64,000 nucleotides of DNA from positions 62,001 to 126,000 of the forward strand of contig CAIYBN010000137.1 of the NCBI GenBank assembly GCA_903924465.1, in the 5' to 3' direction. Positions within the stretch are counted from its first letter, which is position 1, and each line of letters opens with the position of its first letter. The notes beneath the pieces are model-generated. The model was not told the origin of the DNA and made no database searches. It saw only the letters and a list, made by a program, of their open reading frames with translations. The position numbers and the translations under genes are program-made. This stretch comes from an uncultured Myxococcales bacterium (GTDB lineage Bacteria > Myxococcota_A > UBA9042). This document shows positions 18,530 to 56,151 of this stretch, piece after piece.

Positions 18530-21460
18530 CTACGGCTGTTCGTTTGGCGCCACGCTCGGCGCGCTCCCCGGATGGCGCTCGTTCAGAATCGGCGGGGGTG
18601 GCGGCGGCAACTGGGGCGGCGGCACACCGATCTCAGGATCCCCTTCGCGTCCCAAGCCGCGATCCGGCGGCGGCGCAGCTTCTGCCGCAAACACACCACC
18701 GCAATCGCCCAGCATCCGCCGTTCTTCCTCAGCAATCTTCCCGCGTTTGACCATCACGTCCGCGATCCAGCACAGCGTCGTTTTGGTGCTATCGCTGATC
18801 TTGCCGTCCCGGTACTGGTGATAAAACGCCCGCGGATTCGGTACGATGTCACCCAGCCAAATGGCCTGAAGCAGCGTCAGATCGCCGGGCGGACGGTTGA
18901 AATAGTGCTGCGATGCCGCCTTGATGCCGTAGATTTTCGGGCCCAGCTCGATGATGTTCAGGTACAGCGCGAGCATCTGCTGCTTGGACAGCGAACGCTC
19001 GATTTGCCACGTGACGACCGCCTCTTGCACTTTGCGGCTGATCGTCTTCTCACGCTCGACAAAAAACAGGTTCTTCACCAGTTGCTGGGTGATGGTCGAC
19101 GCACCGCGGACAAATCGGCCGCGTTTCAGGTTCTCAATCGCGGCGTTCTTGAACGATTCCCAGGAAAAGCCTTTGTGGCCGAAAAAGCCGCCATCCTCGG
19201 TCGTGGTCAGCACTTTGACGAAGTTGGCCGAAATGCCCTCCAGCGGCGCCCACAAATCCGCGCCGGGGCCGGTCACAAACGTATACAGCGTCCCGTCTTT
19301 CTGCCGCGCGTGGTGCTCAAACGGCGCGTCAAAGATGTCGAAGCGGATGTACTTGCCCATGCTCGTGATGCGCACGTTGCCCAGCGCCGGCTCCCACTCC
19401 AGCTTCAGCGAGTTCATGTTCGCCGTGTCCAACGCCAGCTTCGCCTCCGCGCTCATCTGACCTTCGCAGGTCATGCCGTCCAACATCGGTGCAAAGCCGC
19501 GCGGCGCCGAATCGACGACGTCCTGGCACGGAACCGTCGGGATCTTCAGCGAGATGGAAAACGCCGGCGCGGTGCGGAAATGCTTCACGGCGGCCTGAAT
19601 CACCGCGTGCGTTTTGCCGACGATCACCTCGGCTTCATCCAGCTTCAGCTCCTGTTTGCGCAGGTCAATCGCCAATTTGCCGCGCGCTTCCACCACCAGA
19701 TCTTCCAGGCGCTGCCGGGAGATCCGCGCAATGTCCGCGTCCAGATGTTCCACTTTGCCGTGGCCTTCCAGCGTCAACTGCCCAGTCGCTGCGGTGAACA
19801 GCAGCGTCAGCGCGGCATCCCGAACCGCGCCGTTCTCCTGCGGCACCAGCACGGGCGGCAGCACCGCCGCGTAGGCCGCCAGTGGCAGACGTTCCAACTG
19901 CATCTTGAGCTCGACATCGCCGGTCTTCGTGTCCACGCGGCTCTCGATCTGGTTGGTCTCCTGCCGGCCCGGCGTGTGAAACGCGAGTTCCAGCCGCGCC
20001 ACGTCTTCACCCGGCTTGCGCTGCAATTTCGCCGAGAAATCGCTCAACTCGCGCGCCTGCCCGCCCGCGGTGCCTTGCTCGTCGGAGAACCGCGCGCGGC
20101 CACGCTGCACCGTGATCAGCGGCACGGGGATGGCCGCCACCGCGGTCTTCAGTTTGGTCAGGTTGCGCTCCAACTTGTCCGCGCCTTGCGAAAACGCCGC
20201 CGACAGGCCGTTGCGAATCGTTGCGCCTTCCGACCCGTCCGAGACCTTTTGCGCGGCGGCAGCGGCTTCTTTGGCAAGCTTCTCCGCCTTGGCGTTCTTG
20301 CCCTTCGCCGGTTTCTTCGCACCGTCTGGCGTCAACTCCGGCGCGGATTCCTCGTCGTCGTCATCCGCCGCCGCCGCTGCTTCCTTCGGGCGTTCCTGCC
20401 GTTTGCCGACGATGACGGGCTCCTCGATCGCCACTTCCGCCACCCGACGGAGCATCTGCCGGGCAAACGGCGGGATCTTGTCGCGCAGCGCATCGGGCAG
20501 CACGGGTTCGGGGCCTGGAACCGCACTCAGCTTGATGGCGATTTCCTGGATATCCAGGGCGAACTGGCTGGTCCCGGTCGTCTGCGCAAGTTGCACCCGA
20601 CCCAGCGCGATGGAGCCATCTGTCCGCGCCGTCAACTGCCCCACCTGCGCGCGCCAGCCGCCCATGTCCACGGCCATCTGTCCCGGCAGCCGCAACGTCA
20701 ACTCACCGTTCCCCAGTTCCTTGCCATCACTCGGTCGGTCCAGCTTGCCGGTCAACTGCACTGCATCCGCCATGCCCGCGACGCGCGCCGAGGCCTGGAG
20801 CACGAGGTTCTGCGTCTCGGCGACCGCCGACGTATTCTTCAGGCTCAGCGCGGCATCCGACACGCGCAGGTGATGCAGGTCCAGCCCGGCAAGCTTGGCC
20901 GGCGCCTGGCTATGCTCGTCGTCAAACGCCGCGCGCAATTGCCGCATCTCGATGTCCGGCAAGTGCTTGGACACGTATTTGCGCCACCCTCCGCCGTGCG
21001 CTTCTTCGTCATCGTCGCGCGGCTTCAGCAGCCGGTCGAAGATGCCCTGCGCGTTCCACGTGCCGTTGGCGTCGCGGCGCAGATACAGGTCAGGCGACTG
21101 CAGCAAAATCGTTTGCAGGTACAGCTTGGGCAAGAACAGGCCGCCAATTTCGTACTTGACCTGCAACCGGGCGATGCGCGCGATCGGCGTCGTTTCCGGG
21201 TGTGCGGCGTCCCGCAACTCGACGTTGTCGAGCGTCAGCGCGCTCATCGGATCAAACCACGTCTTGCCGATGGTCAAACGGACGCCGCGTTTTTCGGCGC
21301 GCTGAATCAGCCCCGCCGTCACCTTGTCCGTCAGCAGGCCCGGCAGCGCGAAATAGAACACGCCGAGGCCAAAACCGCACAGAGCCGCCACAGCGATCAG
21401 GCTGCGTAGCATCCACGTGCGCGCTCGCCCGGGTCGGGCGCTAGGCTGGGCGGCAGTCAT
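18530..21460 (-). CDS. AsmA-like / GT51 peptidoglycan glycosyltransferase fusion, copy 1
   Basis: 976 residues. A membrane anchor (about residues 18-42) leads into a long periplasmic region resembling AsmA/TamB-like proteins, interrupted by a charged Lys/Ala/Glu/Asp segment near residues 380-440. A GT51 transglycosylase domain follows (about 735-880): E755 in T-E-D-G-G-F-F-G-H-K-G, then G-A-S-T-I-T-Q-Q-L-V-K-N-L, S-R-K-V-Q-E and L-Y-L-N-I-I-E-L-G. Both catalytic glutamates are kept. There is no transpeptidase domain; the end is Pro-rich. It is expected to polymerise lipid II glycan strands at the inner membrane. Canonical monofunctional GT51 proteins are about 240 residues, so the AsmA-like extension is unusual. 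A paralogue lies at 28900-31812. Repeat copy A begins 17 bases upstream of the ATG. Confidence 0.88.
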   Translation of the reverse strand: MTAAQPSARPGRARTWMLRSLIAVAALCGFGLGVFYFALPGLLTDKVTAGLIQRAEKRGVRLTIGKTWFDPMSALTLDNVELRDAAHPETTPIARIARLQVKYEIGGLFLPKLYLQTILLQSPDLYLRRDANGTWNAQGIFDRLLKPRDDDEEAHGGGWRKYVSKHLPDIEMRQLRAAFDDEHSQAPAKLAGLDLHHLRVSDAALSLKNTSAVAETQNLVLQASARVAGMADAVQLTGKLDRPSDGKELGNGELTLRLPGQMAVDMGGWRAQVGQLTARTDGSIALGRVQLAQTTGTSQFALDIQEIAIKLSAVPGPEPVLPDALRDKIPPFARQMLRRVAEVAIEEPVIVGKRQERPKEAAAAADDDDEESAPELTPDGAKKPAKGKNAKAEKLAKEAAAAAQKVSDGSEGATIRNGLSAAFSQGADKLERNLTKLKTAVAAIPVPLITVQRGRARFSDEQGTAGGQARELSDFSAKLQRKPGEDVARLELAFHTPGRQETNQIESRVDTKTGDVELKMQLERLPLAAYAAVLPPVLVPQENGAVRDAALTLLFTAATGQLTLEGHGKVEHLDADIARISRQRLEDLVVEARGKLAIDLRKQELKLDEAEVIVGKTHAVIQAAVKHFRTAPAFSISLKIPTVPCQDVVDSAPRGFAPMLDGMTCEGQMSAEAKLALDTANMNSLKLEWEPALGNVRITSMGKYIRFDIFDAPFEHHARQKDGTLYTFVTGPGADLWAPLEGISANFVKVLTTTEDGGFFGHKGFSWESFKNAAIENLKRGRFVRGASTITQQLVKNLFFVEREKTISRKVQEAVVTWQIERSLSKQQMLALYLNIIELGPKIYGIKAASQHYFNRPPGDLTLLQAIWLGDIVPNPRAFYHQYRDGKISDSTKTTLCWIADVMVKRGKIAEEERRMLGDCGGVFAAEAAPPPDRGLGREGDPEIGVPPPQLPPPPPPILNERHPGSAPSVAPNEQP

Positions 21461-21477
21461 GTTGGGCTATACACGCT

Positions 21478-21607
21478 GACCGAGGTTCGCGATCAAACGT
21501 CCTCTATCCGCGGCGTGCCACCAGAAGTGCACGCTCGCGGTCGCATTCCGAAATGCAACAGATCTGAGCGGCGATCTTGGGAATCCGAATAAGGTCTTCA
21601 TGTTTAG
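21478..21607 (+). repeat. 130-bp dispersed intergenic repeat, copy A
   Basis: Aligns without a single gap to 52524-52653, with 28 mismatches by hand count (about 78% identity). An identical 12-base block (CGGCGTGCCACC) and an identical ACGCTCGCGG form the two sides of a hairpin whose loop differs between copies. The ends share GACCGA and CATGTTTAG. This copy fills the space between a lipoprotein gene and the AsmA/GT51 gene, both minus strand. Its right end overlaps the lipoprotein stop codon and its left end is 17 bases from the GT51 start. It is in antisense orientation to local transcription. Confidence 0.85.
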
Positions 21608-22104
21608 AAGGACGCTTTACCGGACGCGACGACGATGCCGACGATCAGGCCGGTCGCCAGGATGACACCCGCGGAGACCATGGCGACCGTCTTGCCGGTG
21701 GACAAGTGGTCGACTTCAAACGATTTGACTTCCGACAGCGGCAACAGGTAGTCGCGATCCGAGGCGACGAGTTGGCTGGACGCCATGGAGAAGTTGAACG
21801 CCGTGACCTGATAGCGACGACCGCCTTCCGAGCGCACGAACAGACGCGTGTCGCGGTTGACGCCGACCTTGTCGGACTTTTCGTCGGTGACGGTCACCAG
21901 ATCGTTCTCACCGCGTTTTTCCAACGCCGAGATCTCTTCGGGCGAAATCACACCCGCGAGTTTCTGATCCTCAATCACCGCGCCAGCCGACTGCAACTTG
22001 CGAAATTCATCCGCCGGCACGCGGTAGGTGTTGTAGCAGCCGGACAGGGTCGCGGCCACCAGCGTAAGCAACGCCAGAAAAGCAGTCGGGCGCAGGTGTG
22101 GCAT
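21604..22104 (-). CDS. Small lipoprotein with a C-terminal hydrophobic segment, unknown function
   Basis: A 166-residue protein. The signal sequence ends in the lipobox T-L-S-G-C-Y, so it should be lipidated. The middle is hydrophilic and contains a repeated-looking E-I-S-A-L-E-K-R-G and a strand-rich part (F-V-R-S-E-G-G-R-R-Y-Q-V). A clear hydrophobic segment of about 22 residues lies near the C-terminus (V-A-M-V-S-A-G-V-I-L-A-T-G), which is unusual for a lipoprotein already anchored at its N-terminus. GAGG lies six bases before the ATG at 22104. It follows the TM2 gene by 71 bases and precedes the AsmA/GT51 gene on the same strand. I recognise no family. Confidence 0.75.
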   Translation of the reverse strand: MPHLRPTAFLALLTLVAATLSGCYNTYRVPADEFRKLQSAGAVIEDQKLAGVISPEEISALEKRGENDLVTVTDEKSDKVGVNRDTRLFVRSEGGRRYQVTAFNFSMASSQLVASDRDYLLPLSEVKSFEVDHLSTGKTVAMVSAGVILATGLIVGIVVASGKASF

Positions 22105-50968: not shown

Positions 50969-52516
50969 ATGTCTGGGCATTGTTTGCGTCTGGCTTTTGC
51001 CCGGGTCAATCAGGAAACCAACGCGTTGTCGCCGGTGTTGACCACTTTGGCCGATTTCAAAGCAACGCACTGGCTGGAAGGCCCGCAGTTGCTCGCCGCC
51101 TGTGGTCGCAAGCCGATGGAAGTCCTGGGGATGTTTCGCAATGCGGAACTGTCCGGGTTTGTGCAGGAAATGCACAAGCTCTCGCATGCCCACGACCTGG
51201 CCCACGCGCATACGGGCGTGGCGCTGGTGCCGCTGGTCTCTGCGTGGGCCGTTCCGAGCGGGCCGCTGACCCGAGACTGCCTGCAGGGCATCATCGACGC
51301 GATCCTGCGGCAGTTGCGGGCGACCGAGCCGGTTGACGGGCTGTATCTGAGCCTGCACGGCGCGATGGGCGCGCAGGACACAGCCGATCCGGAGGCCGAG
51401 ATCATCCGTCAGCTCCGTGCCGAGTTGGGACCGACGCTGCCGATTGTTGTGACCTATGACCTGCACGCCAGCGTGAGTCGCGAAGTGGTGGAGCAGGTGC
51501 AGGCGATTGTTGCGTACGCCACCAATCCGCACCGCGATCACGCGCGCACGGGCGCCATGGCCGCGCGCATGTTGCTGGGCGTGTGCCGCAAGACGTTGCA
51601 CCCGACGATGGCGTGGCGCTCGCTGCCGATGCTGATGGGCGGCGGTACGACGATCGACTTCCTCCCGCCGATGCTGGCGATTTTTCAGCGGTTGCGGCGT
51701 TGGGAGCGGCAACGGAAGATTCTCTCGGGCAGCGTGCTGATGTGCCATCCGTGGAATGCGCATCCGGAAACCGGCTGGAATGTCCTGATTGTCACGGACG
51801 GCGACCGCAAGCTGGCGGAGAAACTGGCCGATGAGGTCGCCGAGCTGTGCTGGCAAGTGCGCCACGAACTGCCGCCGGCGTTTCACACGCCGGAGAAGGC
51901 GATCCAGTTGGCCAAGTCGGCGCGGCTGGCGCGCAAGCTGGGCGTCGTGGTGCTGGCGGACACGAGTGACGTGGTGAGCGCGGGCGCGCCGGGTGAAAAC
52001 ACCGCGCTGATCGAAGCACTGCTGGCGCATGGTCGCGAATTGGTCAGCTACGTGCCGCTGCGGGATCCGGAAGTCGTGGCGGCGTTGTGGCCGCTGGCGA
52101 TTGGCAGCCAGCAACACGTTACCTTGGGCGGCAAGCTGGATCTCGCCCGCGGCAAGGCGTTGACGTTGCAGGTGACGATCCACGACAAGCGCGAATCGCA
52201 CGGCGTGGGCCGGATCGTGGTGCTTGTCCACGAGAAGGTGCACATCGTCGTTGTCGAGGGCCCGGCGCTGGCCGTGCGTCCGGCGTTCTTCAGCAACGCC
52301 GGGTTGAATCCGTGGCGCGCGGACGTCATCGTCGTCAAGAACTTCTTTCCCTTCAGGATGTTCTTTGCGGCGATGGCGCGACTGACGCTCTACGTGCGGA
52401 CCAGCGGCGTGACGGACTTTGACGCGGCGCATGTGCTGGAGTTTGCCGGCAACATCCATCCGCGCGACGAAGTGACCGAATGGCGCACCGCGGATAGGCG
52501 GCGACGGCTCGACTAA
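50969..52516 (+). CDS. M81 (MlrC-like) metallopeptidase
   Basis: 515 residues; the ATG directly follows the S1P-lyase-like stop. The N-terminal DUF1485 region has R-V-N-Q-E-T-N (H-E-T-N in many homologues), the L-H-G-A-M-G loop, and Y-D-L-H-A-S-V-S, which carry the zinc-ligand Asp and His of M81. The C-terminal M81_C domain shows L-A-D-T-S-D-V-V-S-A-G-A-P-G. The named member, MlrC, cuts linearised microcystin, but most M81 proteins have unknown natural substrates. Here the usual N-terminal His of H-E-T-N is Q. It is co-transcribed with the upstream lyase gene; a shared pathway is unproven. Repeat copy B starts 8 bases after the stop. Confidence 0.85.
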   Translation: MSGHCLRLAFARVNQETNALSPVLTTLADFKATHWLEGPQLLAACGRKPMEVLGMFRNAELSGFVQEMHKLSHAHDLAHAHTGVALVPLVSAWAVPSGPLTRDCLQGIIDAILRQLRATEPVDGLYLSLHGAMGAQDTADPEAEIIRQLRAELGPTLPIVVTYDLHASVSREVVEQVQAIVAYATNPHRDHARTGAMAARMLLGVCRKTLHPTMAWRSLPMLMGGGTTIDFLPPMLAIFQRLRRWERQRKILSGSVLMCHPWNAHPETGWNVLIVTDGDRKLAEKLADEVAELCWQVRHELPPAFHTPEKAIQLAKSARLARKLGVVVLADTSDVVSAGAPGENTALIEALLAHGRELVSYVPLRDPEVVAALWPLAIGSQQHVTLGGKLDLARGKALTLQVTIHDKRESHGVGRIVVLVHEKVHIVVVEGPALAVRPAFFSNAGLNPWRADVIVVKNFFPFRMFFAAMARLTLYVRTSGVTDFDAAHVLEFAGNIHPRDEVTEWRTADRRRRLD

Positions 52517-52523
52517 TCACTCC

Positions 52524-52653
52524 GACCGAAGTTCGAGATCATCCGTTTTCGATCCGCGGCGTGCCACCGGTGGTGCACGCTCGCGGTCCCAGTCCGAAAG
52601 GCAACAGGTCTGACCAAAGAAGTTTGGTGTCCGACATAGGTCAGCATGTTTAG
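52524..52653 (+). repeat. 130-bp dispersed intergenic repeat, copy B
   Basis: Gap-free match to 21478-21607 (102 of 130 identical by hand count). The central hairpin CCGCGGCGTGCCAC...GTGCACGCTCGCGG is kept in sequence while its five-base loop differs (CGGTG here, CAGAA in copy A). GACC near the left end can pair with GGTC near the right end in both copies. It lies between the M81 gene and prfC in the sense orientation, the opposite orientation relative to transcription from copy A. Reading either copy as protein gives no third-position bias and a stop in copy A, so it is not coding. Confidence 0.85.
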
Positions 52654-54348: not shown

Positions 54349-54389
54349 GCGAGACTTCCTCGCGAAATCGTCAGAAACGTGAGGTTTCT
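54349..54389 (+). terminator. Two small hairpins after prfC
   Basis: GCGAG/CTCGC around ACTTC (54349-54363) and AGAAAC/GTTTCT around GTGAG (54373-54389) follow the prfC stop. The second is followed only by GG, not by a T-run. They may be a weak terminator pair or part of the leader of the next gene, whose ATG is at 54427. Confidence 0.3.
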
Positions 54390-54426
54390 GGATCGCGGCC
54401 CGGCCGTTTGCTACGCTGCGGACGTG

Positions 54427-56151
54427 ATGCATCTTCCGCCCCCACCAGACCTGTTTGACCGCCGCCGCCTGAGTGGCGCTCTGCTCGCCTTGTTGCTGCT
54501 GTGTCTGCCGGGGCACGCTTTTGCCGTGCTCGTCGATCCGAGCGGTGGTTGTCCAGCGCCGCCCAACACGCTGGTTCTGACCGAGTTCATGGTCGGCGGG
54601 CCCAACGATCCCCGCTGGGTCGAGATCACCAATCCAGGCAAGTACGCGCTTTCGCTGGTCAAAGTGACGCTGCAGATCTTTGGCGAGAAGGGCGCGCTGC
54701 TCGCGAGCTTTCCACTGGGCGCGACGCTGCCGTCCATTCAGGCCGGCGAGGCGTGGGCGCTGGGCGATGTGCCGGACACGAGTCCACTCAGCGCGTTGCT
54801 CAAGGTCAAGATCCTGGAATTGGGCGAGTCTTTTGCACTGCCGGCCTGCCACGCCAAGCTGGTGCTGATCGGCCCATCGGGGCTGATCGACTCGTTTGAA
54901 TACAACTTGTGCCAGGCCACGCCGAAACCCAAGGCGACCGTCCTGGCTTTGGACCCGGCGTTTACCGACCCGTGCAAGAACGGCGATCAGACGCTCTGGT
55001 GCTTTGTGCCGCCGCAGACGAGTCCGTATGGCACGCCGGGTGCGAAGAACGTGGGCTGTGATCTGGACGGCGATGGCTACCTGTCGACCAATGGCGACTG
55101 CAACGACCTCGACCCGACCGTGCACATCGACGCCCAGGAAGTGTGCAACGGCGTCGACGACGACTGCAACGGCTTGACCGACGACAACCTCACGCCGCCC
55201 GTCGGTTTCTGTCCTTCCTTGGGAATTTGCGCGCCAAGCGTCGGCGCCGACGGCACCGTCAAGCCCGGCGCCGTAGCCCATTGCGAAGGAGCGACCGGCT
55301 ACGTCTGCGATTATCCAGCAGGTTTTGAACCCGCGAAGGAAACGCTATGCGATGGTTTTGACAACGATTGCGACGGCTTGACCGATGAAGGCTTGTTGAA
55401 CGCCTGCGGGACCTGTGGCGCGCCGCCCAAGGAAATCTGCAACGGCAAGGACGACAACTGCGACGGCAAGACGGATGAAGGCGTCGTCGTCACGGGCCTC
55501 GCGTGCGGCAGCAAAGGCGTGTGCTTGCTGGCGCAAGACCTGTGCGTCGATGGCACGCCGACCTGCGTTCAGGATCCCGCCTGGCAGGCGACCGAGACGC
55601 TGTGCGACGCTTTGGACAACGACTGCAACGGCCTGACCGACGAAATGCTCAACGACACGAGTTGCAGCAGCGGCATCGGCGCGTGCGCCGTGGAGGGTGC
55701 CAGAAAGTGCGCGCTGGACGGCAGCGTGATGTGCCTCACAGCCGCGCCCGGCACGCCAAGCCAGGAATTGTGCGGCAACGGCCTGGACGACAACTGTGAC
55801 GGCAAAACCGACGAGGGATTTGATGTCGGCAGTCAATGCGAGGCGGGCACCGGAATCTGCCGGCTCATCGGCAAGAAACTGTGCAGCGCCGACAAGCTGG
55901 GCACGATCTGCAGCGTCGATCCCGGGCCTGCGGATGCCTTTGAAATCTGCGGCAACGGTTTGGACGACAACTGCAATGGCCAAACCGACGAATCCGGCTG
56001 TCGGGCCACCGCGAACGGCGGCGGCCTCCCTGGCTGTGGCAGCGCCGGCATCGGTTCGGGCGTCGGCGGATTCCTTCTGGCCTGTGTCTGCGGCTTGCTG
56101 GCCATCTTCCGTCGCAGGTCGCGGGTGCGAATTCCGCCCAGCCGCGGATAG
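54427..56151 (+). CDS. Secreted MopE-repeat protein with lamin-tail-like N-domain and MYXO-CTERM-type end
   Basis: 574 residues. Signal peptide with hydrophobic L-L-A-L-L-L-L-C-L-P-G-H-A-F-A. Residues about 40-190 resemble a lamin-tail domain (L-V-L-T-E-F-M-V, W-V-E-I-T-N-P). Six MopE-type motifs follow, such as L-C-D-G-F-D-N-D-C-D-G-L-T-D-E, and a D-L-D-G-D-G-Y calcium-like loop. The C-terminus is G-C-G-S-A-G-I-G..., a hydrophobic segment and R-R-R-S-R, the Cys/TM/Arg tripartite form of MYXO-CTERM sorting tails. It is thus expected at the cell surface, possibly released or lipidated at that Cys. It shares the repeat type with the giant lipoprotein at 1312-7149. The start is ATG 54427; GTG 54424 is an alternative. 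Confidence 0.86.
   Translation: MHLPPPPDLFDRRRLSGALLALLLLCLPGHAFAVLVDPSGGCPAPPNTLVLTEFMVGGPNDPRWVEITNPGKYALSLVKVTLQIFGEKGALLASFPLGATLPSIQAGEAWALGDVPDTSPLSALLKVKILELGESFALPACHAKLVLIGPSGLIDSFEYNLCQATPKPKATVLALDPAFTDPCKNGDQTLWCFVPPQTSPYGTPGAKNVGCDLDGDGYLSTNGDCNDLDPTVHIDAQEVCNGVDDDCNGLTDDNLTPPVGFCPSLGICAPSVGADGTVKPGAVAHCEGATGYVCDYPAGFEPAKETLCDGFDNDCDGLTDEGLLNACGTCGAPPKEICNGKDDNCDGKTDEGVVVTGLACGSKGVCLLAQDLCVDGTPTCVQDPAWQATETLCDALDNDCNGLTDEMLNDTSCSSGIGACAVEGARKCALDGSVMCLTAAPGTPSQELCGNGLDDNCDGKTDEGFDVGSQCEAGTGICRLIGKKLCSADKLGTICSVDPGPADAFEICGNGLDDNCNGQTDESGCRATANGGGLPGCGSAGIGSGVGGFLLACVCGLLAIFRRRSRVRIPPSRG

Follow-up and report, generated by a model that had tools for sequence, protein, structure and literature searches.

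The window, by which we mean the whole 64,000-nucleotide stretch of DNA analysed here, holds two copies of a 141-bp non-coding MITE that very probably uses an IS630-family transposase in trans, targets CTAG and often lands at stop codons. It founds a new family among the MITEs of the IS630/Tc1-mariner type, a kind that is itself well known. The window's own genome (G000) is a myxobacterial, metagenome-assembled 5.8-Mb draft in 149 contigs that is 94.6% complete, and we followed the element through this assembly and through four congeners (G001 to G004).

The two copies had been noticed as a gap-free repeat of 130 bases (21478-21607 and 52524-52653) with 28 mismatches, and this description proved exact; BLASTN returned a single alignment without indels at 78.46% identity (E ~3e-26), and a MAFFT alignment of the two stretches agreed with it. 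As the earlier note had read them, both copies start with GACCGA and finish with CATGTTTAG. The right end of the proposed repeat was the true one, but the left end was not, and the unit begins 11 bases further upstream. When ~50 copies were aligned with their flanks, the conserved unit was 141 bp including the target bases, starting C-TA-N-ACACTCC-GACC and ending CATGTTTAG; column information was at background from -12 and beyond +129, and the columns outside were random. A TA stands at either end, with C before it in 37/48 copies and G after it in 30/47. The terminal inverted repeats (TIRs; CTAAACA..GACC) are 15 bp long and imperfect, with the outer helix paired in 76% of cells. With no gene inside and a length under ~300 bp, the element has the size of a bacterial MITE, and the two window copies differ by no indels because both copy one element of fixed length. 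The family profile matched the window at these two places and at no others (Table 1).

Table 1. Coordinates in the window of the two MITE copies, their parts and the adjoining genes.
Feature	Position	Strand	Remarks
MITE copy 1	21467..21607	+	141 bp when the C and G of the target CTAG are included; 21468-21606 from TA to TA; profile match 4.3e-40, boundaries from aligned copies, empty site in G002
MITE copy 2	52513..52653	+	141 bp; profile match 1.6e-48; absent at the orthologous place in G002
Left TIR, copy 1	21467..21481	+	CTATACACGCTGACC; the family's left end matches the 3′ end of the IS630 element
Right TIR, copy 1	21593..21607	+	GGTCTTCATGTTTAG
Left TIR, copy 2	52513..52527	+	CTAATCACTCCGACC
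Right TIR, copy 2	52639..52653	+	GGTCAGCATGTTTAG
G+C-rich conserved hairpin core, copy 1	21508..21541	+	
G+C-rich conserved hairpin core, copy 2	52554..52587	+	
DUF748/transglycosylase gene	18530..21460	-	ATG 6 bp from the 5′ end of copy 1
166-aa ORF	21604..22104	-	stop TAA (21606-21604) provided by the 3′ end of copy 1
M81-family metallopeptidase gene	50969..52516	+	stop TAA (52514-52516) provided by the 5′ end of copy 2

No transposase gene adjoining either copy was seen among the flanking genes scanned, as had been noted before. The description of the repeat as non-coding was nearly right, except that each copy gives an adjoining ORF its stop codon. Elsewhere in the window, the ORF at 54379-56151 encodes six MopE-type putative metal-binding motifs and gives a weak match to a lamin-tail domain.

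With BLAST, a profile HMM and patterns for the core and the left arm, we found at least 84 dispersed copies in G000; this is a minimum because the searches scored no more than the top 40-60 candidates. A covariance model found 23 to 60 or more copies per genome in each of the four congeners, and in 48 other genomes it gave weak matches solely in G018, which belongs to the same family but a different genus. The G018 match at L096:1502-1645 is a palindrome whose ends read CTATAC...GTATAG; it is distinct from the present element and may represent a sister MITE family. The core pattern was present in 5/52 genomes of the class, all of the same genus, and was not found in the other 47; viral contigs and plasmid collections held no match to the element. 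In Rfam, no family matched either at the gathering threshold or at E<=5, the only returns being a tRNA elsewhere and chance matches. The earlier note had recognised no named element and had proposed searching the genome and its relatives, allowing that the pair might prove to be alone or to belong to a known family; the pair has many relatives, and Rfam held no match. One identical copy is borne by four G000 contig ends, and multiplication is therefore recent. In G001, head-to-tail clusters of 2-3 copies spaced ~125-138 bp apart (C63:3-264, C106:49215-49592 and C161:19745-19960) suggest tandem insertion or duplication.

Mobility can be read directly at copy 1, whose place is empty in G002: the window has GGGCTA[element]TAGAAGGACG where G002 has AGGCTAGAACGACG. 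The exact empty site thus reads GG-CTAG-AA and the filled site GG-CTA[element]TAG-AA, with TA on both sides when filled, which gives a target-site duplication at this one site. In G001, G003 and G004 the same place holds copies that have decayed throughout, core included. The counterpart of copy 2 is absent in G002, and the neighbourhood is different in the other congeners. Most copies are species-specific; when ~80 G000 copies were set against 44 sampled G004 copies, 3 places besides copy 1 were shared on both flanks, and one further gap common to the two genomes holds insertions in opposite orientations.

A candidate partner came from a DDE_3 search of the congeners. G003 has a 1230-bp IS630-family element (L145:1379-2608; G003:C752, CAIPXZ010000752.1), apparently intact. 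The overlap of its two ORFs (HTH_33 and DDE_3) falls on A8G, eight A followed by a G. Programmed frameshifts commonly occur at sequences of this kind, and one is likely here. No complete element of this type was seen in the other congeners searched. Its ends read CTAAACAyTCCGACCGAAGTC, and both ends of the MITE match it co-terminally, the MITE 5′ end matching the IS 3′ end over the first 29 nt (90%, E 4e-7; by eye the match reaches 33 nt, CTAAACACTCCGACCGAAGTyCrAGATCATCCG) and the MITE 3′ end matching the IS 5′ end over 27 nt (81%, E 2e-4). The MITE core was not found in this IS630 element. The family therefore has TIRs in common with IS630 together with the TA duplication and CTAG preference of the IS630/Tc1-mariner type, as read from one empty site and ~48 flanks; the preference of IS630 for the TA of CTAG is established (PMC6811581, citing Tenzen and Ohtsubo 1991 as its reference 19). 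These shared ends suggest that this IS630 transposase is the one that mobilises the MITE.

In G000 itself, the Pfam DDE_3 search gave no match, and the 94.6%-complete assembly contains no complete IS630 transposase gene, a point against the proposed partnership. With the partner protein as query, contigs C37 and C108 (L213:1-150 and L214:1-150) were found to open within the C-terminal part of a related IS630 transposase, at 61% identity over 36 aa, in a remnant that runs to ...ATGTTTA(G) and whose TIR is only similar to that of the MITE (23/33 by eye). IS630 3′ fragments at two contig ends therefore imply at least two IS630 copies in G000 that broke the assembly. This is evidence of a multi-copy IS630 that was probably collapsed out of the assembly, with its bodies missing from the bin.

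In 299 kb of G000, CTAG occurs at 0.16/kb compared with 3.3/kb expected from base composition, a ~20-fold depletion, and 13 of its 49 occurrences (27%) lie on stop codons; in the window there are 10 CTAG sites where 209 are expected, 4 of the 10 being assigned to stop codons and 1 to coding sequence. Genes were called with a simple codon-usage gene caller, and a stop was counted if it lay within the last 12 nt of the element. The copies are mostly intergenic. By this measure 52 of 84 G000 copies (~60%) end on a stop codon, a count to be compared with 13/49 in the knowledge that the CTAG sample is the flanks of known copies and no random sample of the genome. The low overlap of copies with ORFs and the counts of terminal codons are partly circular in that ORF ends define the "used" ends. 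The left/right asymmetry is safer: 37 copies carry the stop at the 3′ end only and 11 at the 5′ end only (4 at both; p = 2e-4), and the same treatment of G004 gave 17 at the 3′ end compared with 1 at the 5′ end, with one copy in both counts (p = 3e-5). On the incoming strand the sequence at the element's 3′ end is CTAAAC, which re-creates TAA, and the 5′ end in most subfamilies is CTAT or CTAC, through which a ribosome would continue for tens of codons; where the 5′ end does serve as a stop, TAA or TAG stands there in 10/15 copies, again a partly circular figure. Because the 5′ end permits read-through and the 3′ end restores TAA, selection against read-through is the simplest reading of the orientation bias and probably its source.

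We propose that an IS630-family transposase, acting in trans, would recognise both imperfect TIRs (CTAAACAyTCCGACC...) and insert the element into the TA of CTAG, leaving TA on both sides. In a G+C-rich genome where CTAG is very rare and often a TAG stop, such targeting would place many copies at gene ends; there the 3′ end of the element would bring TAA on the incoming strand and restore the stop, so that insertions of this kind would be nearly harmless.

An alternative account, modelled on reports for the ERIC and NEMIS RNAs, is that the element is a structured RNA or cis-regulatory 3′-UTR element whose hairpin affects mRNA decay or termination and which the host selects site by site, its mobility being incidental. 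Several points support this account. Both strands fold better than shuffles (z ~ -2 to -3.5), as an extended imperfect stem that encloses a G+C-rich hairpin, and the hairpin with the following AGTCCGAAATGCAACAG is 91-95% conserved compared with 73-80% for the variable arms and ends (93% for the inner left TIR). Differences between reciprocal nearest-neighbour copies number 18/706 in the core and 93/972 elsewhere, and double-changed arm pairs number 16 compared with 11.8 in shuffles, a mild compensation. The 3 places common to G000 and G004 have kept the core while their arms differ, and orientation relative to neighbouring genes is strong. The TAA carried by the 3′ end, however, accounts for the orientation, and the common places hold different subfamilies, as expected of independent insertions at the rare CTAG. 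The decay at the copy 1 locus in three congeners, which took the core with it, speaks against selection by the host, as does a tree of 123 copies in which the ratio of terminal to internal changes is ~4.5 for the core and inner TIR and ~2.2 for the arms; these ratios fit constraint acting on multiplying lineages more than on settled copies, although terminal changes are fewer in the core than elsewhere despite its higher ratio. RNAalifold found almost no covariation in the core, which says little because the core is nearly invariant, and the lack of an Rfam match is a further point against. No sense strand is claimed because the strand test on G.U versus A.C mismatches was inconsistent between helices. 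Several copies had been found via the core pattern, which raised a concern about ascertainment; a search with the left-arm pattern gave 72 matches, with the core lost or broken in 4 and present in the others. Overall we consider the RNA account improbable and do not adopt a free-standing structured RNA; the element is a MITE instead. The earlier note had posed a choice between selection on length or structure and descent from one mobile unit. Descent is borne out by the copies, TIRs, TA ends, empty site and IS630 element, and selection on structure is weakly favoured by the compensation in the arms and opposed by the decay at copy 1; the covarying stems it had suggested looking for exist in mild form in the arms and hardly at all in the core. 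The MITE reading has a difficulty of its own, which counts against it: a MITE should require its ends alone, but conservation is higher in the core than at the outermost ends, and the reading by itself does not account for this. We think that the core probably serves transposition (e.g., as a cruciform or host-factor site) and not the host, and host selection or gene conversion may act on it. That the MITE has been co-opted as a 3′-UTR control element, with a host-kept core hairpin and linker that tune mRNA decay or termination, strikes us as equally doubtful; if true, one genus would be employing a mobile element as a shared gene-end module for many mRNAs.

Two other readings are far less probable still. 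The first takes the element for a REP, a REPIN or a similar palindrome that a RAYT/Y1 transposase moves as a single strand; such a palindromic repeat would also be dispersed and mostly intergenic, and the earlier note had named REPINs beside MITEs as possibilities. To our knowledge REP elements are without TIRs and target duplication, so that the IS630-type TIRs, the TA at both ends and the matching DDE-type IS630 element do not fit a REP-like reading and leave it next to no probability; its companion suggestion of a MITE is the one that the at least 84 copies, the TIRs, the TA at both ends, the empty site and the matching IS630 in the genus uphold. The second reading, in which a single known gene or IS decayed and by chance left two remnants, could draw on the homology of the 5′ arm to the IS630 3′ terminus; the MITE core did not turn up in the IS, however, and more than 80 full-length copies have both ends in common. 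Copy number and common boundaries refute the decayed-gene reading, and we give chance remains almost no credence. An attC-like reading was also rejected when, by eye, the ends did not fit RYYYAAC/GTTRRRY.

The MITE described here gives Myxococcota a large family that seems to have been active recently and for which an IS630 partner is identified; in the literature searched we found no such family described for this phylum. It is also a clean example of a short, avoided target: CTAG, which persists mainly at stops and in intergenic DNA, directs a mobile element to the ends of genes, and the element's own end then mends the stop codon. That its core is better conserved than its outer ends raises the testable question of why a transposase-driven MITE needs its middle.

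Among known systems, the element seems most like RUP in its relation to IS630, and in length and palindromic shape it resembles ERIC (PMC2229807). RUP of Streptococcus pneumoniae (107 bp, ~100 copies, with proposed mobilisation by IS630-Spn1) is likewise short and non-coding, with TIRs common with an IS630 element and insertion at TA (PMC2229807); compared by description, our element differs in its length of 141 bp, its G+C-rich core hairpin, its concentration at stop codons and its phylum. ERIC/IRU of enterobacteria (127 bp) is likewise a long imperfect palindrome of similar length, intergenic and with TA termini; by description again, PMC2229807 names no autonomous partner for it, whereas here there is an IS630 with the same ends. 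The Correia/NEMIS elements of Neisseria share TIRs, TA termini, a length of 105-155 bp and a foldable transcript (PMC2229807), but that article names no IS partner for them, and one form of Correia/NEMIS has an IHF site. TnRErm46/ISRe46 of Rhodococcus equi likewise targets CTAG and lands on and restores TAG stops (PMC6794481); unlike our element, it is an autonomous resistance transposon and no MITE, with other ends and a duplication of NCTAGN.
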